A stretch of DNA of 64,000 nt from Sipunculus nudus (lineage: Eukaryota > Annelida > Sipuncula > Golfingiida > Sipunculidae), in assembly GCA_026874595.1 (NCBI GenBank), contig CM049309.1:74880426-74944425 (forward strand), in the 5' to 3' direction. Positions 3,299-63,106 of the stretch are shown here, one piece after another. Positions within the stretch are counted from its first letter, which is position 1. Each line of letters opens with the position of its first letter. A program made the translations under genes and the position numbers. The notes under the pieces were generated by a model. That model did no database searches and was not told where the DNA came from. It was given only the letters and a program-made list of their open reading frames with translations.

Positions 3299-3299
3299 T

Positions 3300-30323: not shown

Positions 30324-33300
30324 AACAAGTGGCCAATGGGCCATGACACTCACCTAAATCTGACTGGGTGGTAATTTCTTTTATTAATATTATTTATTGT
30401 CTGTTATAATAGCCATTGGCCAATGTTACTATGTTGAAAAATGGACAGAAAATAAAAATTTCAGGATTCATAGGAGACCTGCCAAGGGCCCCCCTGGATT
30501 TCACAATAGATGGTTCCAAGGAAAATGGATACAATTTGTAATCTGTCTGTCTTGGTGCTCAAAATCATGTTTCTGGTCCATAGCTCACAAAATATTATTC
30601 ACCATGACCCAATATCAGGTTTCCAAGGAGAACTTCCAAGGACTTCCCTGAATGTCATGTTAGAAGAGTCATTGGCTACTCCATGCAATTTGTGCTCTAT
30701 TTGACTGCTCAAAATAATGCTTCTGCAGCTTGCAGAATATAGGTCACCATAACCTAATTTTGAATTTCAAAGGAGATTTGCCCAGTACCCAGGCCTAATG
30801 CATACAATTTGTATACATCTGACATTAAATGTACTCAAATCATGTTTTGGCCTGTCACATGCAGGTTTTCAGTGGGATTTGTCAAGATCTCCCTGGATGT
30901 TGTGTTGGAAGATACAATTGGTGTCCTATCTGACTGTATTTGACTTGTATTATTAGTTTTAATTCCTATTTTTATGATTTAAAGAAGACTTGCCAAAGAC
31001 CTTTCTGGACTTTTGATATAAGGTTCAAAGGAAAACAGATACAATTTGTACCTTGTCTGTCTGGATACTCAAATTCAGATTTTTTTTTGCTCAAAGGGCA
31101 CAGAATATAGCCTGTGCACCAAGACATAATTTCTGGTTTCCAAAGAGATTTGCCTATAACCTCTCTTGATGTTGCTTTAGAAAATTCTAAGCCCAATGCA
31201 TACAATTGGTGCCTATCTGATATTTAGGGTGCTCATATGACACATTTTCCTTGCAGGTTGCAGAATATAGGTCACAGTAACCTAATTTCATGTTTCAAAG
31301 AACATTTGCCTGGGAACTCCCTGAATGTTATGTTAGAATATTCTAGGCCTAATGGATACTATGTGCTCAAAATCATTTTTCCTGCCTAAGTTGCAAAATA
31401 TTGGTCACCATGACTTAATTTAAGGTTTCCTAAGAGATGTGCCTAGAACCTCCTTGGCTTTTCTGGACTTAACAGACATGATTTTTGGCTATCTGACATT
31501 AATGGTGGTCATATAACATCTTTTTCCTAAAGGTTGCAGAATATAGGTCACCATGATCTAATTTCATGTTTCCAAAGCCTAGGACCAACCAGGATGTCAT
31601 GATAGAAGATTCTAGGTCTAATGGATACAATTTGTACCCAGTTAGACTGTCTGGGTGCTCAAAATCATGTTTTCGGTTCATTGATGCAAAATATAGGTTT
31701 CAGTGACGTAATTTTAGGTTTCCTAGGACATTTGCCTGGGAACTCCCTGAATGTTATGTTAGAGGATTCTAAACCTAATGGATACAATTTGAGCCTTGTC
31801 TAACTGCCTCAGTGCTCAAAACCATTTTTCAGCCTAAAGGTCATAGAACATAGGTCACCATGACCTCATTTCAGGTTTCCAAGGACATTTGCCAAGGACA
31901 TCTCAGAATGTTACATTAGAAGATTCTAGGACTAACAGATACTATGTTACACTGGCCCAATGAAACAGCTCTGACAGAGATATCAATTGGCTCTCACTGT
32001 GTTGCACTTAGTGCCGGTACTGCTACCACGCGGCAATTTACATAACTTATTACTACTCTCTGACCCTGTTATTTCATCCACTGGTAAGCTTGGGCCTTTC
32101 TGGACAGTCAGCGCCACACATCACCAGCCTCACTGAACTAAGGTCTTTCCCAGTGACGTAAGGAGTAATTATAGTGGTCTTTCCCAGAATCTTTTTCAAA
32201 TCCAATAAGGTTAATTCAGTAACCACATACTGTAGGCTTCCAGCTTGCTTATCACAGCAGGCCAGTTTAAAATGTGTCTCCAGCTCAGCCAATCAGCGTG
32301 AGATATTCAGGTCCACACACGACGAACGCAGTCAAACTGTAATTCATGTACAGACTGACTGAAATGATCACGACGTTCAGCGTGTTGGCAACTTACCAGT
32401 AGCAAGACTTTCATGTGTAACTTGAACACTAACAGATACACAGTACAAAATGGATGCGACATTGTCTACAACGCACTTAAATTTGGCCCATGGATCATAT
32501 GTTTCAACAGCATAGATATATCATAGGACACAAAGGTCCATGTATGGACTTTCTGAAAACATGCATGATTTCAGTGCGAATGTTACCAAGCGAGTTGAGC
32601 TGTCTATTGCCGATGGGATGCTGTTAGCCTCCTCATAGCAACAATGCCATTCACAGGAGGCGTGACGGCCTGAAATGCAAATGCGAGGGAATCGTCAGGA
32701 GCCTTGTGACACCTTCATATGCAAATATCAGGGATTCAACATACAGACTTTACGGGGCTTTAGTGATAAAAGCTAGAACTGAGTTATGTTGCGTCTATTG
32801 GTACATGGCATCACGTTTCATTTGAAGCATTTTAGCAGTAAACATCAATACACTAAAGCCCAGGTGGTGCTTATTCTATGTGTGCCCTGTCTTGACTTTC
32901 TGGGTTCTAAAAATCATGTTTTGGGCCAGTAGGTCACAAAATACAGGTCACCATGACCTAATTTCTGGTTTCCAAGGAGATTTGCCTAGAACCTCCCACA
33001 ATATTGTGTAAGAAGATTCCAGGCCTAACAGATTCAATTTGTCCTCATCTGACATTCAGGGTGTTGTTCATTTGACATCTTTTTCTATAGGTTGCAGAAT
33101 AAAGGTTACAGTGACTTCAGGTTTCAGGTTAACAATTAAGGACATTTGTCTAGGACCTCCCTAAATGTCATGTTGCAGGATTCTAGGCCTAATAGATACA
33201 ATTTGCTTCCTGTCTGACTGTTTGGGTGCTCAAAATCATGTATTCAGCCCATAGGTCACAAAATATAGATCACCATGGCCTAATTTCAGGTTTCCAAAGA

Positions 33301-33453
33301 GATTTGCCTAGGACCTCCCTGGATAACGGTAAGAATTTCTTAGATCTAACTGTAACGATTTGTGCCAAGTTAACAACAGGATGGCCAGACATACTCCTGA
33401 CAATTAAAGGGTGACCACTTTAGCTCAGATGACTTACTATCAACTGAGCTAAA
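30324..33453 (+). mobile_element. Family A Helentron/HINE-like element, expanded copy with about 12 internal units
   Basis: The left end AACAAGTGGCCAATGGGCC is a variant of the family's palindromic start. The right end is the perfect hairpin TAGCTCAG...CTGAGCTA at 33421-33451. In between are roughly a dozen units of about 140-170 bp with 'ggtcaccatgacctaatttc', 'aggtttccaaggagatttgc' and 'agattctaggcctaatgg'. Examples are near 30598, 30744, 31268, 31400, 31546, 31693, 31852, 32945, 33101 and 33268. The repeat is interrupted at 31947-32880 by unrelated sequence. The 60-84-codon frames here all come from the repeat unit. Unit length fits the 150-160-bp core repeats described for pearl-type HINEs of molluscs. 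Confidence 0.65.
31947..32880. other. Non-repetitive, CpG-richer block inserted in the family A element
   Basis: A 934-bp stretch unlike the surrounding repeat units. Repeat text stops at 'gatactatg' and resumes after 'attctatg', so CTATG at 31942-31946 and 32876-32880 may be a 5-bp target duplication. It lacks obvious inverted ends. It holds a minus-strand open frame (32074-32292, ending ...MCGADCPERPKLTSG-stop). It also has two octamers ATGCAAAT (near 32675 and 32718) and an RFX half-site-like CATAGCAAC (near 32635). It may be captured host sequence or a separate small transposon; neither is shown. Confidence 0.45.
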
Positions 33454-36400
33454 TATACTATTTAAATTCTTATGCCATTATCCAGAAGAATCTGGTTGTC
33501 CAGTGTAGCACAAACTAATATGTATAAGATTTCACCCATTTTCACTCACAGCAAAGGTTAACTATTCCTGGCAGTTCATATTTGTCGGATCATACAGATA
33601 ACCGACTGCCAACTGCAAATGTTACAAATCAATTGCAGTTTGACACTGGATACAGTTCTTTATGGCGGGGACCCAGTGACAAATTTCCATTTTAAATGAT
33701 TTCTTTTAAAACAGAAAGAGGGCTTTTCATATCTAGTCACTGATGGCCTATTTTTGTCACTTGCCAAACAAAAACATTTAATAAAATAGTTTCCATCATA
33801 GCCATAAAACTCAATCATTTTTATATCATTTCATGAATTATATGATATCTTTTTAATTTACGAGCACTGATGTGTTTCCTATCTGAGTGAGACTGGTGTT
33901 CTGCTGCCAGTCAATACCAAGCACTGTATACCATGATGATACCTCACAGCACAAGACCTATATACCTGTCATAATATTGTACATTTATGTGTTTTATCAC
34001 TGAGCTAATATACCTGTGTAATACTGATATCAGCCACACTTGATCAGTCAAGCATGGGGGGACAGTAGATCCAAGGTTTGTTTTGGTGCAGTGGCAGGCA
34101 TAAAAATAGCTGCCTCAGGAAACAGTGTACAGCTCACCTAAACCAGGTAGCGGAGATGAATCTCGTTAATATCCCTTCAGGTAAGAGAGTGTAATCCACA
34201 ACTAGACTGTTCTAATGCTCCATTGTGTGTTTTTCACTTCAACTGACAAGAGTGCACACACATGCCTGATGAATTTACACACCTGATTTTATTGGGAAAT
34301 GCCCCACACCAAGCCACGAGGGACCTCAGGATCGATAGGTGACATCATCAATTAATTATTGATCCGTTTCCATACGCGTTTTCCCACTGAGTAACCTGGC
34401 CAGCTGTCTAAACCTAAGTGGTCATGGTTGGCATAGCAATATCTTGGAAATCCATGAATATGCAAATCATGTATGTCACAGAACTACATACATCTCAGTC
34501 AACTGCTTTATTTGCACTGCAGTATTTACATGGTGAGCATTGACTATGCATAACAAGAGTATGGTCTCCTCTTCATTACATGTTGCATTCTCAGTACCTC
34601 TCTGTGGTGATATACACTCCACCCCTATGTGTAGTCAGGGAACCATGCATTCTACTCTTCATCATAGACTTAGCTTCTATTGCCTTACCCACATGTCAGC
34701 CTATTATATCTATCAATGTCCTGATGGTCACGATGTATACAAACAATTGACAGATGTGATACCTATGTCCATTTGGTCTGTCCTGTTGCTTGATGTCTCC
34801 ATCTGTGCATGCACATTTAACTAAATATCAAATGACTTGCACAAAGCAGAAAAATTTCCTTGACCATAATATTGTTCTCAGTAAAATAACATACAAAAAA
34901 TTCAGGTGGGGTAATAAATAACATCTAGAAAACTTTTTAAAGTTATTGAAAAAGATCTGACACTAATATGAAAGAAGTAAGGCTAAATTTTAAAAGCGCA
35001 GATGAACTTCCTACACAGGGATATTGTAATACTTTGCCTAACAGTCAGTTTAAATGACCAACATGAGAAAGACAGGAACTACTCACGAGACTGCAGACAG
35101 TACTTTCAAAATGATGTATTTGTATACAGCCTAAGGCTTTTAGATAATATGTTGGAATTTACTTCCCTGGAAGATTTTACACTCAATCCATTATTGATAA
35201 AACCAATGACAAATGATAAATCATGATAAACCTTTTCTAACTACCATGAACTCAACAGATCTGATAACATTTATCTGCAGGAGGGCATATGGCCAAGATA
35301 ATCCATCAAGATTTAAAAAGTGACATGTACATATATTATGATCTAAATTAACTGAGTGTTAATTAATCAGCAAAATCAGTGAAAGTGTCCATAATTCTCA
35401 TTTTGGACTCTCTCGTTCACTCAAAGGTGCAGTATTCAAATGTAGTACTTACATGTTAGAATGTGCAAATCATTATACATGAAAAGAGACTTCCAATGTC
35501 ATGTAACCATAAAAGTGTGCATGTCAAGTGGGAAACAGAAAGATTAATGGAGTCTACTAGAATAGACTAAGTTGATCATCAGTAATTGGCTACAGCTAAG
35601 ATAAATAAAGATCTTATCACATTCCTGGAGTGTTTGTAAGACCTGCAGTTCTAGTTAATTACCTCTCACACATATTTAACACTCTGACAAAGCTGACAGT
35701 TCAATACTCATACAGAACACTTCTTAGTCTAATAAAAGGTTCCTACCAATTTGTGTACTACATTTTAAAGACCTTTTCATGCTTTCACACCAACATAAAT
35801 CTGAATTTTCTTACACACAGCAATTATTTTTTAATCACCATATTCATATATAAGACTTGTCTACCACATTTATGAGATAGTTGTAAATAACTTAAATGGG
35901 CCCAATTACCTATAAAGCATGTTGAATTAACACAAAAAATAGCGTTTTCTCTTTGAAATATATTGGTACCAGCCAAAGTTTTCCCCTGAAACTGTTGGCT
36001 TATTCCTGTACATGTTATCTGTCAAACATGAGCAAAATCAGACCTCCGGCCACACAGCCTTATTTTTGTAAACAGACACATGTGGACTGTGTAAAAAAAT
36101 ACGCAAAACTATAACAAGGTGTTAAATAGCTCAATGGGAGGTACTGAGACCAATTAATGGGACAGTTTTGCCTGGAAACTTTTGTATAAAACAAGCGTGA
36201 AGTGGAAGTGTGACAGAAAAAGTATAATATTGGTCTTGATTACGTCCCTATAACCTGATTGGTACTGGTGAATGGTGATTGGAAATGGTACCATTCTCTC
36301 TGAATCCAATCTTTTTCACATTCTAGGTAGAAAACTAGAACCACAGAAATACTGGTCATTGCAATTTTCTATCTATATTGGATTTCTCTTTAAAATATTG

Positions 36401-37845
36401 AAAAGCATTGGAAAAATATTGCACAATATGGTTTCTAAATTTTAATAGGAGACATAGTCCAGATCAAGGTATCCCTCAATCCTAAAACCAAATATTCATG
36501 AATACATATATCACAGATTTAATTAAACAGTAAATAATCTGAATAAACCAAATTGTAAAGGGATTTGGAGCAATAGCACCAAAATGCAGATTGTATGTCT
36601 ATTGGACTAATACACTGAAACTCCTTCAATGGAAAGAGTGCTTTAATAATGTCACCTGTTCATCTGCTCCATTGCTTTGCTTGTGAAACAGAAGTTTAAT
36701 TGGGATGGAGAGAGGCAATTGGGATTGATATGGGACGAACTTTACCTGGAGAAACAGCTGGATCCTGATTTAAATGGGCTTTATCTGATACCAGGACCAA
36801 GTATCCCTGGACATTTTGCACAAAATCTGATCTTAACTTTTTTTATGTATCTACTTTATAACTGATGGTTGTGCCACTCAACCACTATCAAGAAACTCCT
36901 CTGTGGCCATGTCTCAGAAACATCCACTTTTGTCTTGAAATGTTGAGAACGATGCCAAATGTGTCATTAAGGGGTAATCTTCCAAACATTCAGATTCATC
37001 CTGAGAAATCTGACATTATTTCATGAGATTAAAAGTTTTATCATACTGCCATCTATCAGGAGGTTTTTCTATCTATCAGCTTGGTCCTTGAAAACCCAGC
37101 CAGATACGACCAAAGGAAAACCCTGCCTGAACAAAGTCCAGAGGAACTGTCTCAAATCAAGAATGGATATACAACTGGTAATACTTATTCCAATAACCAA
37201 CAAAAAAAAATGGGAAGATAAAACTGAATTACCTACATCATGTGTTTAATAAATTGGTATGGTGCAGTTCATTATCTGGGAATCGAAAATGGTGAATGGT
37301 TTTTGGTTCCAGTTCAAGTTTTCAAGTGAATTTCTTCATGGTAACCTCATGCAGCCATATGTTCAGACAAAAAAGCCTCTATCTTTCCTCAAAAGGAACT
37401 GTTTGGTGTGGAAACCCCATAGGCATAAGTGGTAATGATTTTTGTAACAAATGGTTTTATTACACAAAACAATGTTTTTAATAAATACATGTGAGCTGTG
37501 GTGTGTATTTCCTCAAATATACCAGTATCTGAAGTTTCCTTATTTGGTTTCAAACACATTATTACATAACCAGCATACAAAACCTCCTTATTGTGAAAAG
37601 GATTTGTATTAAAAAAAATTAAGAGGATATAAAACATAACTTACATGTTCACAGTCAGTAATTAGACATACCATGTGTTTCCCAGCTGCAGATAGCAAAT
37701 TTGTACAATACCTGCAGGTAGACAGGTTGGGAGGCCACACCCAATAGGTCAAAGTTCATTTTATTATAAGAGGCTTTTGAACTGAATGGGCCTCACTTGA
37801 AAACAAAACATCAGAAGGCCACTTTGTGTGACTGGCATTGACATA

Positions 37846-37849
<4 letters not shown>
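33454..37849. other. Intronic non-coding DNA, no feature seen
   Basis: Several 60-94-codon frames occur on the plus strand (for example 34540-34824), without credible splice sites or recognisable domains. No repeat array or element ends found. Confidence 0.4.
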
Positions 37850-37890
<41 letters not shown>

Positions 37891-37929
37891 AGAGAGAGAG
37901 AGAAAAAGAAAGAGAGAGAGAAAGAGAAG
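37850..37929 (+). repeat. (GA)n microsatellite
   Basis: About 80 bp of GA dinucleotides, pure over the first 33 bp and then interrupted by AAAG variants. Intronic relative to the minus-strand gene, where it reads (TC)n. Likely to vary in length between individuals. Confidence 0.95.
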
Positions 37930-40900
37930 GATTCTATCAAGGTACCATTGCTAAACAACTTTTGTTTGTAGGTAATTAATATATTACTAAATGGATAGAG
38001 CAACTGAATGTGAGCATGAAGGACCACAAGACAAAAAAAAGATAAAAAACCACAACATAATTTAGTTTATGTAACAGCTGTACTATTTTCAACCACAAAT
38101 TGTAGAATATGAAAATCTTTTCAGCAAGGGCAGATTTGTGGGTTGCCCCTTCATTTCCCCTTCTCCTATTTTCAACAAAAAATCTGGGAAATAGAAAAAA
38201 AAGGTTTAATACTAAAAGATAGCACTAAAACCACCCCAGACTGCACCATTATGAGCCCCCACCCCCTCTTAATCCACAATCCTCTGTGTGCCAATGGTCA
38301 TGGTGAATGCCAAGGAGAAACCCCTGTTTAAAGATGTAAAGGCACTGTATTTTGATATAATATGAAAGAAACAGCTGTGTATTAATCTATTTACAAAATC
38401 ATTGAAAGTGTTAAATAATGTTTGCAGTGAGAATCATGTGTATGTGTTTCCTGCCTACACAAATTTACAATTATATTATTTCAATTTAAAATTTATAATT
38501 TAGCTTGAGGGGATAAGCCTAACCCAAAGACATCTGACACTAACATCTACAAAGAAACCATTACAGAGTGAAATATACACACTCAAATGCTTAATTAACA
38601 GTGCCTAGGTACAGTATCCATACCAGCTCCATAATATTTTTTTTAATATGCAAATGGCACCACAACAAGCTCAATTCCACAATGTTTGATAGGTGACTGA
38701 TTTTTGCATAAATTTTGGTGATGCTTGTTCCTGCTATATTTGAGATAGTAAGAGTTATTATACAGATGATGGACGAAACCATGCCATCACTTGAGATCAT
38801 ATGTTCACTACCTAATAGTGCTGAATATATCCCCTCACACAGGATAGAAAACTTCACAATGCAGCGGGGTTCAAAAAGCTGAAATCTCATTGATATATCT
38901 AATAATTGAACAATTATATGAAAAAATTGTAAGGTTTGTTTACCTTTAGAAGTTATTTTAGATTTATGAGGCAAATACTTAAGGTTTAAATATTTGCCTG
39001 TATAAATTTAATATATTGTGCCAGGAATATTCCAATAGGGGGTGGTCTGGTTCCAAGATATTCAAATATCCATTATAACTGACAGTGGTGGTAACCAACA
39101 GACCTCTTATGGGGCTTTTTCCTCAGAAATCCCCTTATTACCTGAGTTTAACTGTCAGGAATTATGCAATCAGCAATAGCATGGTACTGTGTGTCCAATG
39201 TATCAACCACTGATCTGTGTAGAATGATAACATCATGGTAAATGTGAGATAACCTAAATTGTCTGACATGTCTAGCTGAATGATCATACATGCAGGAATG
39301 ATCCCCTCAGTAAAAATAAGAGCTGCATAGAAAAATGAATTTGTGAAAAGAGCTACTGAATCCACACAAGATCCTCTTTAAAGGTCATCTGAATAAAAAC
39401 ACTGCTTTATAATTACCTTTCTTCTGAAACATTTGCTCAAAATATATGATATAAAGTACAAATATGTAATTAATAACTTTAATAAAAATGCTTTTTCGTA
39501 AACAAAAATTAAAAATTAGATTAACTGACCTACACTCTACATCAGCCAAATATAACTTGACCACACATGTGCTCCACAGAAGACCAGTGTACTGCCTACC
39601 TATCATGAAGAGTTAATCTCCAGGCATGTGGAGTCACTGCTGTATCAACAATAAGGATTGTAACTGCTCCGACATACGTGTATGGTATGTATAACCATAT
39701 GAAGGCTGACAGGGGTGATGTATGGTATCATTATCAACTGGACCTGAGGTTACCATATGTGTTGGCCTGGCATTTCTTGCCAAATTTGGACATGTGATTA
39801 TTAATGACTAATATATGATTTAATTGAACTGACAACACCCAAAGTTTGGGTAATATGTAAACTCTTACATATAGGGAAATTATGCTGCTTAAATAACATT
39901 TCAATGTAAAAAAAGTTACACTCTTTTTAAATATCTAATAAAAGTTTATTGTTGTACAAGAGATAATTTATTATATGAGACTGTCCAAAAAGAGGTCTAA
40001 CTGATTTCAAATTTCTGCTGTTTGGGATCATTGTTTAACCATGTTTGATGACTGTGAGAAGCAACTAATTGTCAATCATTAACCTGCCACGATTTGAGAT
40101 AGCATCCACTGAAGAAGAGTGAAGACAACCATACTTCAATAAAGTTTTTCAAGATTTCCAAATAGCCTAAATGTCACAACCTTTCAATACTTTATTAGAC
40201 ATAGATAACCTCCTAAGTTACAACCAGTTGTCCAGATACTCCATAGATCATCTGGTGGTCTGATGAAAATTCTCTGTATGCTTTGGTGGACATTATTAGA
40301 TTTGAGCTTGCTACTTTCATTGTCTAAGTCTACCTGCCTTATCATTAAGATATGCCCCATCCTTCTAAGGTTTTCCCTGAAATTTACTCTAAACATAAGG
40401 CCCTAATTTACTTGACTTGCCGGTCGAACTTTGTTATTCTTAGGTCTTATTGCTTGGTGCCAGCTGTTCTGATAACATTAAGTATTACCCATGAATGTTA
40501 CACTTGCAGACCTGTCACAGATAGATTACATGCATGCTTGTTGATTATATAAGCAGTGGTGTACTAGAGAGGAAACCATAAAAAGATTCAATTTAAAATA
40601 AAAATATGTTCTTTAATATTATTAGAATAATATTACATATTTAAATTATGTTCTCTTTTAGAAATCACTTTAGGCATAGCAGAAACAGACAGATATCCTC
40701 CTTTTACAAAAAGTTTGCTCACAGATTAATTAATGAAATGGCCTTGTGAGCCAATTGATAATCAAGTCTTTCTAAATCTAGTACTTTTAATGATATTATT
40801 GTCAAATTAATCATAAGAATTTGACATCTGAAAGATCATTGAGGTGAAAATTCTGTGATAGTTTATACTGTGCACAGCAGTCAGTTATCAATGAATCTCA

Positions 40901-41553
40901 GTTGTGTTCAAATGATATAATACCATCAAAAGTAATTCCTCCTGAATGCCTACAATGCCACCTGTAGGGCATCTGACAAACTAGATCCTCTAAAAAGGGT
41001 CTCAAGCTGAATAACATGTCATTCTTAGTATTACAATTTGAGCGTATTTATATACGTGAAATTGTCTTCTTTGGTATTAGCTTTAAACAGAGCAAAATAA
41101 TATTTGTTTTCCTTTTTCATGTCAACACAATGCATATTGTGAACAGAACATAGCTGCACATGGTATTCTTTTTAAAGGATTAATTCTACTAATACTGATT
41201 ATTTCTTTCATATTAAGCTGATTTACTGACATATGACATAATTAAAGGAATCATCCCTTGCAAAAATAGCACTAAAGAAACAAATGCTTAAATGGGATAT
41301 TGCCATGTAGTTTAATATTTAATGGCCCATTAAAAACGTGCTTAATCTTATGTGATGGGTAGTTAAAATAATACACTTTTTTGAAAATGTACTTGTTTTT
41401 AATAGATTTTGAAATGAATGATGATTTCACTGACATGCGCACCAGCAGAAAGAACTCTTTACCAAATTTATAATGGTATCTTCTTAGTGGGTTATAATAT
41501 AAATTTAAACATCTTCTGGACTTTTTTACATATAGGAGCTGATGATACTACCT
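37930..41553. other. Intronic non-coding DNA, no feature seen
   Basis: AT-rich. The longest frame (38591-38974, minus, 127 codons) has no recognisable domain and lacks good splice borders, so it is left out as chance or relic. Confidence 0.4.
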
Positions 41554-42836
41554 TTAAAGGAGCAAAATAGAGAAACAGGTGAGTGTCTTACTGTGCTGGA
41601 ACAGCAGTGCCTGGAATGCTACCTTAAAAACAGTAGAGTAATGGATGACTGACTTACACTCAGTCACAGAAACTGAAATGGCATGCAGTGCCAGGGATGT
41701 TACCTTAAAAAACAGTAACATAGAGTTATGAACTACTGACTCACAGGGACCGGAGCAGCAGTACCAGGGAAGGTACCTTAACAAGTGACCCATGGGTCAT
41801 GATGCTCAGCTGACTGGGAAGAGATTCACAAAAGGAAATTTTATCATCTGAAAGGTAGTATATACCCATTCAACTGAAGCATCAAACAGATTAACCAACA
41901 GGCCAAGATTGTGTCTGCATTTATATATATTTCAAAAATAGAGAAAAAATGCGTAAACTTAAAGAAAATACAGGTGGCTCCACCAGTCTGCAGAAACTAA
42001 TAAAAACACTTAATGGTCAATATCCATGCAAAGAAGCATGGTGGTCACTGGATTAGTTGTTCAGATACTTCAGCATTTGTATCAAATTGTCCATTATTCT
42101 GAGGGATACTTCGGAGTCCTATAGCTTGAAGGATATGGGAAACAGATACCTAATTTCAGGTTTCCACAGAAACTTTTCATGGGCCTCCTTGCATGACAAG
42201 AATGAAGATTCTAGGTCCAGTTGTTACTATTTGTACCCTGTTGACAGATAACCACATCTTAAAAGGTCTCAAAAATAGAGAAAACTATTCGTAAAAAATC
42301 GAAAAATATAGGTGGCGCCACCAGTCTGCAGAAACTGTTGAAACAACTCATGATCAATATGTATGCCAAAAATCATGACCATCAGTGATGTAGTTAATGA
42401 GATATTAAAGTTTTTGTATGAAATTTTTTACTATTCTGGGGGGTAATTTGGGGCCCCATAGCTCAAAGGATATGGGTAACAGAGACCTAATTTCAGGTTT
42501 CCATGGAGACTTTTCATAGGTCTCTCACTGTGTCAAGAATGAAGATTCTAGGTCCAGCGGTTACGATTTGTGCCTAGTTAACGAACAGACAGACACACCG
42601 TCGAAGGACAAAGAGTGATCGCTATAACTCAGCATGACTGAAAGTCAGCTGAGCTAAAAACAGAAACTTAGAGTAATGGATGACTGACTCACAGAAACCA
42701 GAACAGAAGTGCCAGGGATGGTACCTTAAAAAACAGTAAAACAGAGTAATGGATGACTGACTCACAGAAACCGTAACGGCAGTTCCAGTGATGGTACCTC
42801 AAAACAGTAACGTAGAGTAATGGATGAAGGACTTAC
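41554..42836 (-). repeat. 71-73-bp tandem array copied from the 3' end and donor of the adjacent exon
   Basis: Read on the minus strand, each unit repeats the last bases of exon 42837-42979 and its donor. The exon ends ...ACAGCTGTCACAGTCTCT|GTAAGT. The next copy (42766-42797) ends ACTGCCGTTACGGTTTCT|GTGAGT, which also reads T-A-V-T-V-S. Further copies lie at 42693-42724, 41745-41776 and, more decayed, near 41660-41705 and 41580-41640. Each complete copy is preceded by an acceptor-like tract (for example TTTTTTAAG or GTTTTGAG) and so forms a potential 32-nt mini-exon. A family A element (41780-42657) splits the array. The array is seen directly; use of these sites in transcripts is unknown. 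Confidence 0.85.
41780..42657 (+). mobile_element. Family A Helentron/HINE-like element inserted in the exon-derived array
   Basis: The left end AACAAGTGACCCATGGGTCA continues to GCTCAGCTGACTG. The right end AGTCAGCTGAGCTAA gives the inverted 12-13-bp subterminal repeat. Two internal units hold 'aggtggcgccaccagtctgc' and 'gacctaatttcaggtttcc'. The flanks are informative. The array unit 'ggtaccttaaaaaacag' is cut to 'ggtacctt' before the element and resumes as 'aaaacag' after it. This gives an empty-site view, with insertion next to TT, the target reported for Helentron-type elements. The left stem of the 3' hairpin has one mismatch (TAACTCAG). Confidence 0.75.
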
Positions 42837-42979
42837 AGAGACTGTGACAGCTGTGGTCTGCTTTCTCAGAGACGCCATGTCTGTACATACGTTAGTGAGC
42901 TCTTGGTCTATGTGTATGTCTCTCTCATCTTCTTCCAGGATCACTGCAGACAGTGTACTCCAAAGGCCACTATCTTCGA
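42837..42979 (-). CDS. Internal coding exon of the Cobl-like gene (143 nt)
   Basis: The acceptor GTCTTTTCAG lies just before 42979 and the donor TCT|GTAAGT at 42837/42836. The exon begins with two bases (TC) completing a codon with the G left by exon 63107 (giving Val). It then reads EDSGLWSTLSAVILEEDERD through to ...TTAVTVS, ending in phase 0. Both junctions match the neighbouring exons exactly. The segment is acidic (LEEDERD) with a short helical look, and has no domain I recognise. Its last 18 bases and donor are duplicated downstream in the 41554-42836 array. Confidence 0.8.
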
Positions 42980-43129
42980 CTGAAAAGACATTATAATAAT
43001 TACTGATAAATACAGATACAGAACAACTTGCAGACCGGCCAAGCTGTTGGCAATTATATTTCCCACTAAAAAATATATATTAATTAAATGTAATGCCATC
43101 CCAGGATAAATGTCAGTAACTGGTAATTA

Positions 43130-43632
43130 TGGAAAATATGACTTGTCCATAGTAAAAGTCTGTCCAGTGAATGGTGTGTATTCTTTATCCTTATATCTCC
43201 ACCAACACTTGTATCAACATCCACTCCAAAAATGTTTGCAACCCAAAATTTAAGCAATCTGTATCATATTAATACACATAAATAGACTGATATACATTGA
43301 AAGCATTGGGTGACACTGACTACACACATAATTTGAAACAAGGAAAAAAGGAAATGCCTACTGCCTTTCATTCCATATTTTCATTGGAAAATATGACTTG
43401 TCCATAGTAAAAGTCTGTCCAGTGAATGGTGTGTATTCTTTATCCTTATATCTCCACCAACACTTGTATCAACATCCACTCCAAAAATGTTTGCAACCCA
43501 AAATTTAAGCAATCTGTATCATATTAATACACATAAATAGACTGATATACATTGAAAGCATTGGGTGACACTGACTACACACATAATTTGAAACAAGGAA
43601 AAAAGGAAATGCCTACTGCCTTTCATTCCATA
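43130..43632. repeat. Apparently perfect 248-bp tandem duplication
   Basis: 43130-43377 and 43385-43632 appear identical base for base and are separated by 7 bp (period 255). They lie in the intron 150 bp upstream of exon 42837-42979. Lack of divergence, against the strongly decayed repeats elsewhere, means a very recent duplication or an assembly artefact. The 76-codon frame at 43552-43782 spans the right edge and is not considered a gene. Confidence 0.95.
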
Positions 43633-46529
43633 AAAAAGTTGAACAAAAATCATCAATTTTTGGAGCAGTTGTCTTGTAGAAAAACTAATAACGATGTGTA
43701 TGTTCAGTGGTTATCAGAAACAGGTATCACTGACAAGCCCAAAACTGACAACTCAGATTCCCAATCAATATGTTATGTCTAATGGTATATTGAGTGTGAA
43801 CTAATTGAAGTTTAAACCTATGACTACCTTAGAATTATGTTCAGTCATGTAGCAAGAGTATTGCATACAGACTGGACCGGGTTATACAGCATGTTTTTTC
43901 AAGGTAAGATTCTCACAAACTAAAACCAGCCTGACAGAGTCAGAGATGCTTGCACTATCTTAGATTGTTCATCATAACTAATTAAACAATATCAATCTAT
44001 TAATGAGCTTGACATGCTATCTACTCTGATCTGTATGACTGTAGGCTATATACTGAGATGCAGGCCTCCAGGGTACTGGTAATTAAGTAATGGATACAAG
44101 TACCTTCAAAGAACACTGTTATAAGGTTGTGTGTACGAACAGCATTTGGTAAATGTGAACACTAATGAACAACAGCATACATGTACACATCTGGAGAACC
44201 AATATGACAAAGCAAAATAAAGGTTTACTCACAAGAAATATCCAGGTTTTAAAAAGCTGCTTGTCATATTTTCATGGCACCTGGTGACACTCTGGTATTT
44301 TGAAATGGATGAGACTATATTTTTAAGACTAACATTACAGTCTGAGTAATAAAGGAAATGAGAAATAAAAACATGTCTAGATTTTTATGAGACTGTCTTC
44401 CTGCTCTTCTGCGAGTCAGCTTCATAGTGATATTACAAATTCCACCAACTATTACATCAAAATAGCATGTTTTTAACCAAATTAAAAGAGGCCATTCGTA
44501 ACTGCCATCCCCTAAAAGTCTGTCTCAATGCTCCATTCTTACATACTCCATCAGTGCTGAGCAAATACCTAAAGAAAAATAGAAATAGCAATAAAATCTG
44601 TTGGTTCATTTCCAGCAGCGGGCTATATGTGGAGCCAAACGATGAGCAGTGAAAAATTATAGATATAAGAAAAAATTAAACTTCAATTTCTTCTAGTGTT
44701 ATTGAAGCTGTATCAATAGGCTGCCAAGCGCTGTCAGTCAATAATTTGTAATTCATTAACGATACACACCATCTGAGCCAGCAGGAAAATTCCACTCGGA
44801 AGCTAATCCTGGGACACCAACCTCAGTGTGCACAAAAAAATAAAACTGACATTTCAACAAAGCAGCAGTGACACCTGATTATTTGTACAGGCGTGGAGTT
44901 AAACCTGAGACCAGATGTAAATGTCTCAGGTCATGGCCGTCATTGTGTGCTGGAAAGTGATAACACCCAAAGCTGCAGGACTGTGCTACACAGATATCAA
45001 TCAAGTTAAAATAAAATGTGAAAATCAAGGACTGAGTTAGAGATTTATGGTGTAATTTTGTTTAATCATAAAATGTTAATCTGACTGCAGAGAACAGGGT
45101 TCCATGTTATCCCTTTTCTACCTCAACTGCCATGTTGGGTAGGTATTTAATAATATTCAAACACCCAAATTTGTTATTCACCTGCATGCCTAAAAAATTA
45201 ATTTGGGTTTTAACTAATGAAAACTTGACAACTTATATGAACATCATTGTTCTTTCCACTATGGTGGGCATAATAATTTCTGGGTATATTTTTCCACAAA
45301 GAGACTACATACAGAAACTTTTCTGCAGTGATTGAATTGTGTACATTGATAATAATTTAGAAGGACACAAATAACACATTACCAGCAGATAATGCGAATA
45401 AAACAGTTTACTATGGGAGAAGTAGCCAATTTTTTATAACCTGTTAACTGAAGTGCTACAACTGCACAACAGCCAAAGATATCTTAAGTTAAGCCCTGGG
45501 GAACACATGTGGTCCTCTAAGATCTACATCTGCAGTCCTCAATTTTCTGAGATGACTGAAGAATCAGCAGTAAGTTCTGCACCATTTACATTCTCTGAAG
45601 TTCATGTCATGCCCGTAACAACTTTTAAATGATACTACTAATATCAAAGACTGTGGTGGAACCATCTGGTTCAAAATAATTCCAAGGAGTTGAACATGAA
45701 ACTCATGGTTTTGTTGAGAGGTAGGATTTTACTGAAGCCAATATAACTTGTGACTATTTGTTGTCTTGAAACTACTGAAGATATAGTGCAATTGTACAGT
45801 TGCTCTTTGACAAACTCTCTAAACATGTGTTCCATCCCTTAATGAGCATGGTTTTCATACTGTGTGGCAATGCAATCCTAAATACCATCCAGAAACCATG
45901 AAGGATCACTTGCTTTTCATATTTCTCAGATGAGCAGGAACATATTTCTGTTGTTTAGCCTCACAGTCACCATGTCTACAGATGCTCAATATGACAGTCT
46001 AAAACATCTTCCCACAATCATGGGGAATAATTTATTATTGATATTTCCTTTCACAAGACATTCATCATGTGACAAGAAGCATACTTCTGTAGTTAATTAA
46101 CTCACACTGTGTATCAATTCAACTGAATATTCACGGATCCAGTCAATAACAGGCTGACACTTTAATTACTTTTTACATACTTTTTTCCTACTCAAAAACA
46201 ATATTTTTTCAGGTAATACTGAAAACCTTATGGAAAATGTCCCTGATTCTTTATTTACTAATGGTCTTTAATTCACTACAACTAAGATGCTATCTTGGTT
46301 AAGTCTAGTAGAATACTACCTGATGCCGTTATTTCTGGGAAATACCAAATACATATTTAACATTTTTTATTATCATAACTCATGTAAACAGACCCAATGC
46401 TCACCTGTGAATATTTTCTATAGGAATAACCATAAAAAGCAAGAATGATTCAATGTCATGCACAGTGAGGTTTAAATCAAACTGACAAAATAAATGGAGT
46501 TTTAATTCAGTCACAATTTGTGAAAAACC
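43633..46529. other. Intronic non-coding DNA, no feature seen
   Basis: AT-rich with only short frames. No exon, array or element end supported. Confidence 0.45.
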
Positions 46530-46890
46530 ATAATCAGACCTTGACCTTTTGCCCCAAATAAACTGGTTCATTCTAGAGTATTAAAAGGTAACTCAAATGT
46601 GAATTTTATCTCAGCTAATCACTTCAAATTGGAGTTACCATCTGGTCACCAATAAATTTGACCTGCAAACTTTGACAACCTGACCCCAAAATAAATATGG
46701 TGTTTCAACAGCACTGAGCTCCATGTGAAGTTTGAAAACAATTAATCAGTCAAAACAGGAATTCATCATCTGAAAATCAAACTGATAAAAAATTTCATCT
46801 ACAGCCTTGACCTTTTACCTCCAGACACCAAAACTAAAAGGATTCTTCCATTAATTAGTGATGGGTTATATACATGTGAAAATTAAATTA
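46530..46890. repeat. Decayed 'ccttgaccttttgccccaaa' repeat
   Basis: Text such as 'accttgaccttttgcccca', 'ttggagttaccatctggtc' and 'tgaccccaaaataaat' matches the 23400-24180 repeat in style. It appears to be about two degraded units. Ends cannot be placed exactly. Confidence 0.5.
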
Positions 46891-47157
46891 TAAATATTAA
46901 TCAATCCAAAGACTTGCAAGATATATACAGGTTGCACAAGAGAAAATAACTGAAAACTGGACATAAATCCCATGCTACATCATAAACTAGGCCTACAGGC
47001 CTAATGCGAACCTGTGCAAAGTTTGGGAGTGTGAATGAAGGTTTATTTTTAAAATTTAATATTGATCCTCTTAAGTCCTGCATATCTACCTTAGTCATTA
47101 TGATTTAAGCAAAATGGACGTTTCGGACCTGCAAGTTTTAGACTAGGCTATTTTAAA

Positions 47158-48225
47158 ACTAGAATATGGGTAGTTGACAAGCGACTATGTGTATCTGCAG
47201 AAATCAGAGTGGGACGGGTGAAGTGAGGCATGGATTAAGTGGCAAGGGGAATAGAGTGAGGTGTGTTGCATATTAGCATGGATGTGACTGCAACGTAAAC
47301 ATGAATGTAGGTGGTGCGACCTGTCATAAAATAGAGAAAATTGTCCAGGATGTATAAACCTGCAAAATTTCAGGTGGATAAGTCAAACCACTTCTGAGAT
47401 ATGAGTGATTTTATCCCAAGGCAGATGAACAGATGGACACTGCATAAATGGTTGCAGGTGGCACCACCAGTTTTGCCTATGATGGAGAGCTATGTGAGAT
47501 CTATACACATGCAAAATTTTTGCCCAATCGGTCAAACGGTTCCCGAGATATGAGCTTGGATGTCTGCAGAGCAAACGGGAATGTAGGGGGTGCCACCTGT
47601 CATACAATCAAGAAAGCTGTCCAGGATGTATAAACCTGCAAAATTTCAGGTGGATAAGTCAAACCACTGCTGAGATATGAGTGATTTTATCCCAAGACAG
47701 ATGAACAGATGGACGCTGTGCATAAATTGTTGCAGGTGGTGCCACCAGTTTTGCCTATGATGAAGAGCTATGTGAGATCTATACACATGCAAAATTTTGG
47801 CCCACTAGGTCAAACAGTTCCCGAGATATGAGCTTGGATGTCTGCAGAGTAAACCTGAATGTAGGTGACTCCACCTGTTATAAAATCGAGAAAGCTGTCC
47901 AGGATGTATAAACCTGCAAAATTTCAGGTGGAAAAGTCAAACCACTGCTGAGATACGAGTGATTTATCCCAAGGCAGATGAACAGATGAACGCTGTGCAA
48001 AAATGGTTGCAGGTGGCGCCATCATTTTTAGTGTATGTTATAAAGCTATCAAAGGGCTACATTTGTGCAAAATTTTTAGCCTGATCGGTCAAACGGTATG
48101 GGATATGTGGGTTTATGGGAACAGACACACAAATGAACGCTGGGCAGCCAGGAAAGGTCAGTGGCAAACCAAAAATGAGGGCGCAGCAGTTCAAATGTGA
48201 CCTGATGATAAACCCAATTCGCTTT
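47158..48225 (+). mobile_element. Family B Helentron/HINE-like element, 3'-truncated copy
   Basis: It starts ACTAGAATATGGGTAG, then a degraded hairpin (GTAGTTG...CGACTAT), and continues as in the copy at 51799. Internal units of about 275 bp pair two motifs: 'gcaggtggcaccaccagttt' (47455, 47732, 48009) and 'gtaggtggtgcgacctgtc'-type text (47308, 47584, 47861). Each unit also has 'ggtcaaacggttcccgagat' and 'cagatgaacagatggacgc'. The right end matches the 51799 copy as far as 'gcgcagcagttcaaatgtgacc' and then diverges, so the CG-rich tail and terminal hairpin are missing. Frames inside (61-77 codons) are repeat-derived. Confidence 0.65.
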
Positions 48226-48299
48226 AAATACAAACTAAGTTTTTTCAAACAGTTGAAAGATATAGTTCCAATAATCTGGGAATTCTGCATCTAGACATT

Positions 48300-48342
48300 G
48301 TGTCTAGACATCTAGACGCTGTGTCTAGATGTCTAGACACAT
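48300..48342. repeat. Perfect 18-bp inverted repeat rich in TCTAGA
   Basis: The arm TGTGTCTAGACATCTAGA (48300-48317) is followed by a 7-nt spacer and its exact complement TCTAGATGTCTAGACACA (48325-48342). More TCTAGAC copies lie on both sides (about 48290 and 48345-48352). The arms are themselves near-palindromic, so several alternative foldings exist. It lies just right of the truncated family B element. Confidence 0.9.
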
Positions 48343-48639
48343 GGTCTAGACACCTGCCAGAGCCAGGTCAGTTGCCATTGTGCTGTCTGGACCCCACCTG
48401 TTTGTACTGAGTGACCTCTTGACTTGGCTGCTGAAACTCAGCATGTTGTCAAATCTGTTTTCAAACACAGAAAGCCTTTTTCAATTGGCTACAATGCTTT
48501 TTTAAAGCTGTATTTACCCAATCTATTCTTATAAAACTGGCAGAACCCTACCATAGAATAATTCTTGTAAAGTTTAAACCAATCAGCTTAACAGTTTCAT
48601 CATAAATCAGTGTATAAGCTAGAAGAGTTTAAAATTACA

Positions 48640-48967
48640 TTTTCGCTTGTAAAAAACAAGTCAATGTAGGTGGCTACCAATACCTCAATTTCAGATATGA
48701 CATATGTGACAAACATTGGTATAAAATTTGGTGATTATAGCTCTAGCCGTTTCTGAGAGTATAATTTTAGTGTGCTTTTTTGGACAGATGACTAAGTTCA
48801 ACCTCCTGTAACTCGGCCATAAATCTCCGAACTGGAACAATTCGAACAAAATTGAGAAAGATTGTTCCAGGGATCATTTCTGTGAAATATTGGACAATTT
48901 GGCCGGACAGTTTCGGAGGAGAAGATTTTTAAAGCTTTTTCAGCTTTTTCCCTATAAAATCTAAGAA
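48640..48967. repeat. Decayed repeat related to families A and B
   Basis: Contains 'acaagtcaatgtaggtggc' (compare the family A start and the 'aggtggc' motif), 'ctgtaactcggccat' and 'tttcggaggagaagattt' (compare 'cggttacggaggag' in the family B copy). Probably a truncated relative directly abutting the family A element at 48968. Confidence 0.4.
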
Positions 48968-51512
48968 AACAAGTGACCCATGGGTCATGACGCTCAGCTG
49001 ACTGGGAAGAGATTTGCAAAAGGAAATTTTATCATCTGAATGGTAGTATATACCCATTCAACTGAAGCATCAAACAGATTAACCAACAGGCCAAGATTGT
49101 GTCTGCATTTATGTATGTCAAAAATAGAGAAAACATGCATTAAAAAATACAGGTGGCTCCACCAGTCTGCAGAAACTAATAAAAACACTTAATGGTCAAT
49201 TTCCATGCAAAGAATCATGGTGATCTCTGCATTAGTTGTTCAGATACTTCAGCTTTTGTATCAAATTTTCCATTATTCTGAGGGATACTTTGGAGTCCCA
49301 TAGCTTAAAGGATATGGGTAACAGAGACCTAATTTCAGGTTTCCACAGACACTTTTCATGGGCCTTCTTGCATGACAAGAATGAAGATTCTAGGTCCAGT
49401 TGTTACAATTTGTGCCACTGACCAGGTGACAGCATCCTTAAAGGTCTCAAAAATAAAGAAAAAATTCAAAAAATTGAATAAAATATAGGTGGCACCACCA
49501 GTCTGCAGAAACTGATGAAACACTCCATAATCAATATCCATGCAAAGAATCATGGTGATCTCTGCATTTGTTGTTCAGATACTTCAGCTTTTGTATCAAA
49601 TTGTCCATTATTCTGAGGGATACTTCGGAGTCCTATAGCTTGAAGGATATGGATAACAGAGACCTAATTTCAGGTTTCCACAGATACTTTTCATGGGCCT
49701 CCTTGCATGACCAGAATGAAGATTCTAGGTCCAGTTGTTACAATTTGTGCCACATCCTTAAAGGTCTCAAAAATAAAGAAAAAATTGAAAAATTGAATAA
49801 AATATAGGTGGCACCACCAGTCTGCAGAAACTGATGAAACACTCCATAATCAATATCCATGCAAAGAATCATGGTGATCTCTGCATTTGTTGTTCAGATA
49901 CTTCAGCATTTGTATCAAATTTTCCATTAATCTGAGGGATACTTCGGAGTCCTATAGCTTGAAGGATATGGATAACAGAGACCTAATTTCAGGTTTCCAC
50001 AGATACTTTTCATGGGCCTCCTTGCATGACCAGAATGAAGATTCTAGGTCCAGTTGTTACAATTTGTGCCACGTTAACAGATGACAGCATCGTTAAAGGT
50101 CTCAAAAATAAAGAAAAACTTTGAAAAATTGAATAACATATAGGTGGCACCACCAGTCTGCAGAAACTGATGAAACACTCCATAATCAATATCCATGCAA
50201 AGAATCATGGTGATCTCTGCATTAGTTATCAGATAATTCAGCTTTTGTATCAAACTGTCCATTATTCTGAGGGATACTTCAGAGTCCTATAGCTTGAAGG
50301 ATATGGGAAACAGAGACCTAATTTCAGGTTTCCACAGACACTTTTCATGGGCCTCCTTGCATTACAAGAATGAAGAATCTAGGTCCAGTTGTTACGATTT
50401 GTACCCTGTTGACAGATAACAACATCTTTAAAGGTCTCAAAAAACAGAGAAAAAAATTCGTAAAAATTTGAAAAAAAAAAACTGGTGGCACACCAAGTTT
50501 GCAAAAACTGTTGGAACACCTCATGAACAATATGTATGCCAAAAATCAGTGTTGAACATCAGTGTTGTAGTTACTGAGATGCAGCAGTTTTTGTATCAAA
50601 TTTTTCATTTTTCTGGGGGGGTATTTTGGAGCCATACAGCTTTAAGGATATGGGTAACAGAGACCTAATTTCAGGTTTCCATGGAGACTTTTCATAGGTC
50701 TCTCTGTGTGTCAAGAATGAAGATTCTAGGTCCAGTTGTTATGATTCGTGCCCTGTTAACAGATGTTCATAATTTTAAAGGTCTCAAAAATAGAGAAAAC
50801 AATTCGTAAAAAATTTAAAAATACAGGTGGCGCCACCAGTCTGCAGGAACTGATGGAACATCTCATGATCAATAGGTATGCCAAAAATCATGACCATCAG
50901 TGATGTAGTTAATGAGTTATTGAAGTTTTTGTATGAAATTTTTGACTATTCTGGGGGGGTACTTTGGGGCCCCATAGCTCAAATGGATATGGGTAACAGA
51001 GACCTAATTTCTGGTTTCCATGGAGACTTTTTCATAGGTCTCTCAGTGTGTCATGAATGAAGATTCTAGGTCCAGTCTTTACGATTTGCGCCCTGTTAAC
51101 AGATGTTCACATTTTTTAAGGTTTAAAAATAGAGAAAAAAATTTGTAAAAAATTGAAAAATACAGGTGGCGCCACCAGTCTGCAGGAACTGATGGAACAT
51201 CTCATGATCAATATGTATGCCAAAATTCTAATGACCATCAGTGATGTAGTTAATGAGTTATTGAAGTTTTTGTATGAAATGTTTGACTATTCTGGGGGGT
51301 ACTTTGGGGCCCCATAGCTCGAAGGATATGGGTAACAGAGACCTAATTTCTGGTTTCCTAGGAGATTTTTCATTGACCTCTCAGAATGTCCAGTTACAAG
51401 TTTCAAGGTCCAGCGCCAGTTACGATTTGTGCCAGGTTAACAGACGGACAGACGGACGACAGACAAAGGGTGATCGCTATAGCTCAGATGACTTACAGTC
51501 AGCTGAGCTAAA
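48968..51512 (+). mobile_element. Family A Helentron/HINE-like element, longest copy with about 7 internal units
   Basis: The left end AACAAGTGACCCATGGGTCA runs on to CGCTCAGCTGACTG. The right end is the perfect hairpin TAGCTCAG...CTGAGCTA (51480-51510). The 13-bp GCTCAGCTGACTG is exactly inverted as CAGTCAGCTGAGC. Seven units of about 320-340 bp each hold 'aggtggcaccaccagtctgc', 'gacctaatttcaggtttcc' and 'gaagattctaggtccagttg', near 49150-51400. The first units are close to identical (49236-50090), so amplification is recent. A 'cagacggacagacggac' run precedes the right end. The 60-90-codon frames inside are unit translations, not genes. Confidence 0.75.
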
Positions 51513-51798
51513 AAATAAACAAAATCCGATAGAGTTTTTCAGATAACTGATTATTTGCAAAAAATTTGGTGATGCTAGCTTCTGCAGTTTTTGAGATAGC
51601 TATGGTTAACGTACAGAAGACTCACGACGAACGACACCGCACCATTGCATAAGCTCACAGGTTCGCTAAAAAAGTTGATGGCACCACCAAATATGACAAC
51701 TGATCTACATTTAAAATCTATATATGTGTAATTTCCTTTCAGAATCAGCCAAGTCATTACTGAAACTGTTTATCAGTATTGTCTGAATTCACAGAAAA

Positions 51799-52970
51799 AC
51801 TAGAATACGGGTAGTCGGCAAGCGACTACGTGTATCCGCCTAAATCAGAGTGGAACGGGTGAAGTGAGGCATGGATTGAGTGGCAAGGGGAAATAGAGTG
51901 AAGTGTTGCATATTATCATGGATGTCTGCAGCCAAATGGTGTATGTACAAAATCCAGAAAGCCGTCCAAGTTGTATACATATGCAAAATTTGAGGCATAT
52001 AAGTCAACCACTATATGTTTATGAGTGATTTTAGCCCGTGGCAGACAAACAGATGGACGCTGTGCAAAAATGGTTAAAGGTGGCGCCACCAGTTTTGCAT
52101 ATGATAAAGAGCTGTGTGAGATCTATACACATGCAAAATTTTGGCCCAATCGGTCAAACGGTTCCCGAGATATGAGCTTGGATGTCTGCAGCGTAAAAGT
52201 GAAAGTAGGTGGCGCCACCTGTCATAAAATCAAGAGAGCTGTCGGGGATGTATAAACCTGCAAAATTTTAGGCAGATATGTCAAACCACTGACGAGATAT
52301 GAGTGATTTTATCCCATGGCAGACAAACAGACGGGAGCTGTGCAAAAATGGCTGCAGGTGGCGCCACCAGTTTTGTGTATGATAAAGAGCTATGTGAGAT
52401 CTATATACATGCAAAATTTTTGCCCAATCGGTCAAACGGTTCCCGAGATATGAGCTTGGATGTCTGCAGCGTAAACGTGAATGTAGGTGGCGCCACCTGT
52501 CATAAAAACAGAAAAGCTATCCAGGATGTATACGCATGCCAAATTTCAGGTGAATTAGTCAAGTCACTGCAGAGATATGAGTGATTTTAACCCAAGGCAG
52601 ACGAACAGATGGACACTGTGCATACATGGTTGCAGGTGGCGCCACCATTTTTTGTGTATGTTATAAAGCTCTCCAAGGGCTACATTTGTGCAAAAAAATT
52701 TTCCTGATCCGTCAAACGGTTCCCGAGATATGTGGTTTTATGTGTGGAATTAGACGCACAAACGGACGCAGAGCGCAGAGGAAAGGTCAGAGGTCAAAAC
52801 AAAATCAGGGTGCAGCAGTTCACATGTGACCCGAACATAATCCCGGGTTTTGTAAAATTCCGCCCAGCGGTTACGGAGGAGTTCTCCGGACACCTACGCG
52901 GCGGCGGTGGTGGCGGCGTGCAGCTGAAAACATAGTATCCGCAAAACTCTGTTTTGGCGGATACAATAAC
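51799..52970 (+). mobile_element. Family B Helentron/HINE-like element, full-length copy
   Basis: The left end ACTAGAATACGGGTAG is followed by a perfect 7-bp hairpin GTAGTCG/CGACTAC (51811-51829) and GTATCCGCC (51832-51840). The right end is a hairpin GTATCCGC...GCGGATAC (52935-52964) containing GGCGGATAC, the inverse of 51832-51840. Two and a half internal units of about 275 bp carry the palindrome GGTGGCGCCACC (about 52079, 52206, 52359, 52486, 52637). A CG-rich stretch 'gcggcggcggtggtggcggc' lies just before the 3' hairpin (52898-52918). Ends and plan match Helentron-type non-autonomous elements, but the sequence is distinct from family A. No coding capacity. Confidence 0.7.
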
Positions 52971-52984
52971 ACAAATGTGTCAAT

Positions 52985-53265
52985 GACAGTTATGAAAAGG
53001 GTTGGGTCAATTTTCTTGCAATTTTGACAAAGATATATGTGGGGATGATAACATTCTTAGATTTTTTGCAAAAATGTAGATGATGCCACCAAATGTGGTT
53101 TGTTGTGCACTTGGTCCAACAAATGCATGGTTAAAAATTGTTGTGAATATCTGCTGTGCTATTGCTGAGAAAAGCTGTCAACTGACAAACAACCAGCAAA
53201 TGACAGAAAAATGCTCCACCATGTCAGTAGTGGCTATAGTTCACAGGTAAGCTAAAAATACCTGT
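52985..53265 (+). repeat. Decayed family A-like 3' fragment
   Basis: Shows 'atgtagatgatgccacc', 'tgacagaaaaatgct' and an end 'gtggctatagttcacaggtaagctaaaaa' (53228-53256), similar to the right ends of family A elements. A similar fragment sits at 51540-51690, between the two full elements. No 5' end visible. Confidence 0.4.
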
Positions 53266-53269
53266 GTAG

Positions 53270-54107: not shown

Positions 54108-54240
54108 TGAAGTGCTCATTAGAGCATGGGACTGTAACCACCTGGATTCATGCCAGGTTACTATGTTTGGGAGTTACACCTCAATAAACACATAGCCTTG
54201 AGCAGGACATCCCCCAATATCACGTGAGAATTAATAAATA
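54108..54240 (+). mobile_element. Probable tRNA-derived SINE relic
   Basis: 'ctcattagagcatgggact' then 'gtaaccacctggattcatgcc' resembles the tRNA-like head of a SINE: a decayed A box, the phrase 'TTAGAGCATGGGACTGTAACC', and a degraded B box GGATTCATGCC. Further on, 'ccttgagcaggacatccc' resembles the conserved central motif TTGGGCAAGACACTT of V-type SINEs. The box sequences are damaged, so the copy is probably inactive. This is recognition by pattern only. Confidence 0.45.
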
Positions 54241-62060: not shown

Positions 62061-62111
62061 CATTGTCAACAGATGGCGCTCAAAGGTCATAACCTCACCA
62101 GCTAGTTCAGT

Positions 62112-63085: not shown

Positions 63086-63106
63086 ATGCATCATTCTGTT
63101 ACTTAC

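Follow-up and report, generated by a model that had tools for sequence, protein, structure and literature searches.

A mirage-like tandem array at a probable exon-intron boundary in Sipunculus nudus

A probable three-exon gene on the minus strand

The window, a 64-kb stretch of Sipunculus nudus contig CM049309.1, carries on its minus strand a gene model, which we drew up by combining coding bias with splice scores; the scores come from home-made matrices that follow the metazoan consensus, and no trained program stands behind them. Probable exon A (63107-63524) starts at an inferred ATG at 63524 and leaves in phase 1, with an open frame, coding bias and a strong donor score; the searches gave no homologue for it. 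Probable exon B (42837-42979, 143 nt) is followed by a GTAAGT donor at 42836 and shows a weak coding bias: of 6808 open segments of 141 nt, 7.8% reach or exceed its coding score. Probable exon C (19332-22959, 3628 nt) enters in phase 0 and combines a long open frame with strong acceptor and donor scores. According to a reading-frame check, the combination A-B-C is open for 1396 codons, as far as exon C extends; when A is joined directly to C, a stop follows after 142 codons, and an intermediate piece with the phases of exon B is therefore required between them. Exon B obtained the top score among all candidates of at least 100 nt, in any phase, within 23010-63100, and its phase class bridges A and C. 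When the 144 phase-compatible candidates were ranked, exon B was second, and three of the repeat units described below, units 2, 3 and 1, took ranks 4, 11 and 19, respectively. A shorter form of the exon, 42891-42979, has identical phases and scored 10.5, compared with 10.1 for exon B; its end at 42891 falls outside the array. On these sequence features, we regard 42837-42979 as a probable exon and 42837 as its probable end.

The frame of exon B had no protein family match in a Pfam scan (maximum E 1). The 1248-codon open frame at 19255-23001 of the minus strand, which is rich in proline stretches, matched nothing in Pfam up to E 1 or in the PDB up to E 10; when it was compared with viral contigs, one stretch fit a pattern, and none was confirmed. 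A wider Pfam search with an E limit of 1 took in four open frames as well as the minus strand, whose stops were written as X, and gave nothing below E 0.07. On that strand, 1-19500, 23000-42999 and 54000-64000 were covered in each of the three frames, 43000-53999 in two frames out of three, and 19501-22999 just as the long open frame. The weak matches to PF14928 (E 0.072) and to FERM_C (E 0.38, in stop-broken sequence) were dropped. A likeness to actin regulators was also considered, but a scan for WH2-type motifs gave no match and we make no claim. Rfam returned no match at gathering scores.

Two further properties of the surroundings were recorded. A tandem duplication with a period of 255 (43130-43632) lies in the intron that immediately precedes exon B; 248 nt are identical between its copies (43130-43377 and 43385-43632), and it is either very recent or an assembly artefact. 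The observed/expected CpG ratio is 0.24 in the whole window, and the large exon, at 0.23, is no exception. Such strong depletion is usual for heavily methylated genomes.

The tandem units and the element inserted between them

Six related units follow one another on the minus strand from 42868 down to 41552, measuring 71-81 nt where complete. The first of them, unit 0 (42798-42868), lies across the probable boundary: its likeness to the other units takes in the last 18 nt of exon B, the donor and 39 intronic nt, and the first 14 nt differ, matching the other five units at 2 to 5 of the 14 positions. The repeat thus enters exon B by 18 nt only, and the similarity spans the donor, provided that the exon and its end at 42837 are correctly placed. 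Unit 1 (42725-42797, 73 nt) includes a potential mini-exon at 42766-42797 with a weak GAG acceptor and a GTGAGT donor. Unit 2 (42655-42724), 70 nt long and cut by a mobile element, includes another at 42693-42724 with a good-looking acceptor, and unit 3 (41704-41776, 73 nt) a third at 41745-41776, where the end of the element stands in place of the pyrimidine tract. Unit 4 (41623-41703) carries insertions and reaches 81 nt; its exon-like part, counted from the printed sequence, measures 36 nt up to GTGACT or 46 nt up to GTAAGT. In unit 5 (41552-41622, 71 nt), a diverged edge unit, the same count gives 31 nt. A GTRAGT is present at the aligned donor position in units 0 to 3 and is shifted in unit 4. 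Identity between inner units is 76-88%, and between pairs that include an edge unit (0 or 5) 61-73%; this greater likeness of the inner units is as in tandem arrays whose edges escape homogenisation.

An initial sequence-only reading had described the region as 71-73-bp units that repeat the end of the exon together with a GTGAGT donor. This relation is borne out: a 41-mer over the end of exon B aligned with the stretch of units 1-2 at 33 of 41 positions, and 1000 dinucleotide shuffles of that stretch reached at most 23. The 18 exonic nucleotides taken alone matched at 13 of 18 positions, a value attained in 13 of the 1000 shuffles. The peptide T-A-V-T-V-S, read in the nearest copy, is likewise found there in the codon register of the exon. 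The extent given for the array, 41554-42979, needs amendment; the units are present, with two further irregular ones of 81 and 71 nt, but they do not form a single array, since a transposable element of about 880 bp lies inside.

A profile built from the units recovered its six members in the window with E values of 2.5e-20 to 2.8e-14; five further matches had E values of 1.2 to 5.6. These data bear on the idea that the 73-bp unit is a member of a dispersed repeat family, that it landed here, and that the exon took its donor from the first unit. The window is indeed rich in repeats with internal tandem copies, and the similarity ends abruptly within exon B, both in favour of such an arrival. 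However, a check for a genome-wide repeat, run here within the 64 kb, revealed no further copy, the next match being the one at E 1.2, and the account of a locally amplified exon end was not refuted by it. Two exact-pattern scans of viral contigs, one with the unit pattern and one with the end of the element, were empty as well, although scans of this kind say little. On the evidence of the window, we consider a dispersed origin of the unit improbable. Units 1-3 also contain AP-1-like sites; the window holds 14 TGASTCA sites, and we claim no regulatory role for them.

The element between units 2 and 3 (E2, 41780-42660, minus strand, about 880 bp) contains two internal repeats of about 337 bp, and its positions 42655-42660 are common to the T run of unit 2. 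Two relatives are present in the window, E1 at about 3846-4614 and E3 at 48966-51514. Read along the minus strand, E1, E2 and E3 share one layout: TTTTTA and a 12-nt subterminal repeat at the start, a GTCT-like microsatellite inside, and at the end the 12-mer in inverted form (with one mismatch in the E1 copy) followed by the palindrome TGACCCATGGGTCA. Next to the 5' subterminal repeat stands an inverted copy, which in ungapped comparison deviates at 3 of 12 positions in E1, at 6 in E2 and at 1 in E3. The tandem repeats have a period of 337 bp in E2 and of 335 bp in E3 (6.7 copies), and the tandem-repeat table lists no array for E1. Two tandem arrays with a 278-bp period, at 47270-48029 and 51958-52732, flank E3.

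By its anatomy, E2 can be classed as HINE-like, that is, as resembling a non-autonomous Helentron. The portions of the Pacific oyster study that we draw on describe for HINEs a pair of inverted subterminal repeats, one at each end and 11-12 bp long, with an inverted copy close to the 5' one (PMC7492417). The 5' subterminal repeat, a GTCY-like microsatellite, internal tandem repeats, a 3' subterminal repeat followed by a palindrome and a T-rich site are features that the oyster elements, as described there, have in common with E2 (PMC7492417). In contrast to that plan, E2 has a poor inner inverted copy, and the likeness is one of plan and not of sequence alignment (PMC7492417). HINEs are expected at T-rich sites that lack a target duplication; the site of E2 is T-rich on the minus strand, and the A/T-rich ends could hide a duplication of a few bases there. 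When unit 2 is joined to unit 3 without E2, a nearly regular unit is restored, which indicates that E2 very probably arrived later than the array.

Splice signals, reading frames and divergence of the units

In each of the three complete units, 32 nt separate an AG from a GTGAGT (42766-42797, 42693-42724 and 41745-41776), in agreement with the initial description. The quality of these sites is uneven. With the home-made matrix, the acceptor of unit 2 scored 5.4, close to the 5.2 of exon B, and those of units 1 and 3 scored -2.1 and -2.2; a slightly different matrix gave 4.2 for unit 2, 4.4 for exon B, -1.1 for unit 1 and -3.9 for unit 3. The poor acceptor of unit 1 is due to its GAG, and that of unit 3 to the loss of the pyrimidine tract by the insertion. 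The proposal of a pyrimidine-rich AG directly before the potential exon of every complete unit consequently holds for unit 2 and fails for units 1 and 3.

Donor scores from the home-made matrix were 1.5 for the GTAAGT of exon B, 0.7 for units 1 and 2, and 2.2 for unit 3. Since 5 of the 31 GTRAGT sites on the minus strand of the window lie within 41500-42979, it could be argued that the additional GTGAGT sites bind U1 snRNP and either tune the authentic donor or send some transcripts to decay. Extension of exon B to the donor of unit 1 or unit 2 leads to stops after 217 or 211 codons, respectively, which would suit this view. Nevertheless, the density of sites follows from the duplication alone, and the first site, GTAAGT, outscores the donors of units 1 and 2, though not that of unit 3. 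For these reasons, we find a donor-competition array very improbable.

The distances between the sites restrict how the units might be combined. Exon B and unit 1 are separated by 39 nt, units 1 and 2 by 41 nt, and exon B and unit 2 by 112 nt, and the limit from donor to branch point is given as about 50 nt in the cited parts of two papers (PMC5740500, PMC7969005). If exon B is followed by unit 1, by unit 2 or by the two together, a stop comes after 204-208 codons, as expected from the claim that one or two added units shift the frame. With all three units (96 nt), the frame is open for 1428 codons, so that the arithmetic of the in-frame addition of three units is correct; yet this form needs introns of 39 and 41 nt, below the limit, and the serial use of three mini-exons is thus unlikely. 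It is not impossible in a strict sense, since bona fide human ultra-short introns of less than 66 nt have been reported, according to the part of that study used here (PMC4463651).

A combination absent from the sequence-only reading is the frame-keeping replacement of exon B by one mini-exon: A-U1-C, A-U2-C and A-U3-C are all open for 1359 codons. From this it might be proposed that the locus contains mutually exclusive exons, in which a 32-nt mini-exon, above all that of unit 2, sometimes replaces exon B in frame, exchanging 47 residues for about 10, and in which exclusivity is enforced by the frame and by the crowding of sites. The stops that follow when exon B is joined by either or both of units 1 and 2, the fourth rank of unit 2 among the phase-compatible candidates, and the 39- and 41-nt gaps, which would block serial use under the limit quoted in those excerpts (PMC5740500, PMC7969005), agree with this proposal. 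As in the clusters of mutually exclusive exons outlined there, units 1-3 are frame-equivalent to the exon and some gaps are shorter than about 50 nt; unlike those clusters, the duplicated part comprises 18 exonic nucleotides and no whole exon, and one of three acceptors is good-looking (PMC5740500, PMC7969005). The proposal is also opposed by the poor acceptors of units 1 and 3, by the lack of conservation of the exon-like parts, and by units 4 and 5, whose exon-like lengths, in contrast to those of units 1-3, do not fit the phases of exon B. Moreover, the 112-nt gap leaves the pair of exon B and unit 2 unblocked by crowding. The in-frame swap itself needs little explanation, since the outgoing phase comes with the donor and the incoming phase is right by chance one time in three. 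Overall, we judge the existence of mutually exclusive exons here to be highly improbable. The related scenario, in which a minisatellite copied the edge of the exon and the unit junctions supplied acceptors, yielding a proto-switch between segments of 47 and 10 residues with single additions shifting the frame, is to our mind equally improbable.

Comparison of the units gave no sign of coding constraint on the mini-exons, whether exon-like and intron-like columns or codon positions were considered, in units 1-5. Among units 1-3, 10 of 32 exon-like columns and 9 of 41 intron-like columns are variable (Fisher p 0.43); the counts become 13/32 and 10/41 when unit 4 is added (p 0.20), and 16/32 and 19/41 with unit 5 (p 0.82). 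By codon position, with 10 columns each, the variable columns number 5, 2 and 3 in units 1-3, 6, 3 and 4 with unit 4, and 6, 3 and 7 with unit 5. An array of mini-exons, as initially envisaged, is therefore weakly supported: one of the three acceptors looks usable, and conservation is no higher in the exon-like part than in the remainder of the unit.

The end of exon B behaves somewhat differently. All five differences between units 0 and 1 in the last 18 exonic positions fall at third codon positions, and the differences from units 2, 3, 4 and 5 are distributed over the three positions as 2/1/4, 2/1/3, 2/0/4 and 2/0/3. Against the unit consensus, unit 0 has five exonic differences, four of them at third positions (counted from the printed letters). 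This pattern, although the numbers are small, fits a translated exon B. At the same time, the end of exon B differs from units 1-5 at 5-7 of 17-18 positions, and the adjoining intron part differs from units 1-4 at 3-9 of 34-39 positions and from unit 5 at 13 of 39. The exon end is thus more diverged than the intron part in four of the five units, the opposite of what is expected for a constrained exon.

This last result, the weak coding bias of the region and the slightly higher score of the form ending at 42891, which keeps the same phases, would all suit a plain intronic minisatellite: the exon would end at 42891, or there would be no exon, and the donor-like GTs would be a by-product of the repeat sequence. 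Such a reading has to accommodate that the first GT of the array is a GTAAGT exactly where a 143-nt, phase-fitting candidate ends, and that the differences within the 18 nt tend, in small numbers, to third positions. We consider it unlikely, while allowing it more weight than the other alternatives.

A mirage-type minisatellite as the preferred reading

Tandem repeats over exon-intron boundaries have been called mirages in amphioxus, and the original mirage paper is reportedly that of Canestro et al. 2002. In the portions of two later studies on which we rely, they are described from the globin genes BflGb6 and BflGb9, Adh3, PGBD5 and troponin C, with unit lengths of 10-72 bp in Adh3, about 150-160 bp in the globin genes, and 60 and 108 bp in PGBD5 (PMC3087553, PMC3902484). 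AG/GT signals occur in many units, and regular splicing reportedly proceeds undisturbed (PMC3087553, PMC3902484). The edges of a cluster escape homogenisation, and new introns have been proposed to arise by the uptake of a unit as an exon (PMC3087553, PMC3902484). As in those mirages, to the extent that these sources describe them, the array of S. nudus has tandem units that would span an exon-intron boundary, with AG/GT in many of them, a unit length within the reported range, and edge units that are the most different. Unlike them, it is split by a mobile element, and it is described from one assembly window.

Related cases exist in other organisms. In the potato RdRp gene, the excerpted account describes a tandem duplication across a boundary that made a new intron, with the support of RNA reads (PMC4974935), and variable repeats at human exon-intron boundaries are discussed in the consulted part of another report (PMC2812944). 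Common to these cases and, if exon B ends at 42837, to the present one is a tandem duplication over an exon-intron boundary together with splice signals (PMC4974935, PMC2812944); in the potato gene, as far as that account goes, the acceptor side is covered, whereas here it is the donor side, in several copies and at the level of sequence (PMC4974935). Among the matches listed in our literature search, no title or abstract start named such an array in a mollusc, and we do not claim its absence. The array would add a case to an already known kind of repeat.

Taken together, these observations suggest that the array is probably a mirage-type minisatellite over an exon-intron boundary, generated by local tandem duplication and with extra splice sites that are mostly silent. 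It fits the mirage anatomy in the features examined if 42837 is indeed the end of exon B; under the same condition, the initial view that an exon end and its donor were amplified in tandem agrees with the sequence and offers the best reading. A source segment of about 73 bp, comprising the last 18 nt of exon B, the donor and about 55 nt of intron, would have been duplicated in tandem, presumably by slippage or unequal exchange, so that each unit inherited a GT donor and an AG near the unit junction. A Helentron-type element would later have inserted in a T-rich spot between units 2 and 3. The GTAAGT at 42836 is presumably still the donor in use and the extra sites mostly silent decoys; judging from the reading frames, use of the donor of unit 1 or unit 2 would shift the frame and bring an early stop, and so would either or both of these units if added to exon B. 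Some points speak against this mirage reading, namely that exon B has no family match and a weak coding bias, that the end at 42891 scores slightly higher, and that the exon end appears more diverged than the intron part. The array probably has no present function, and none is needed to explain it.

The suggestion that the array may be a step toward new exons had already been made for repeats of this kind, in the text cited above (PMC3087553). The locus gives a likely order of events, the array first and the transposon second, and the array keeps a reserve of splice sites that could give rise to new exons. Should arrays of this kind exist beyond amphioxus, minisatellites that lie over exon-intron boundaries may more widely supply spare splice sites as well as new exons and introns.
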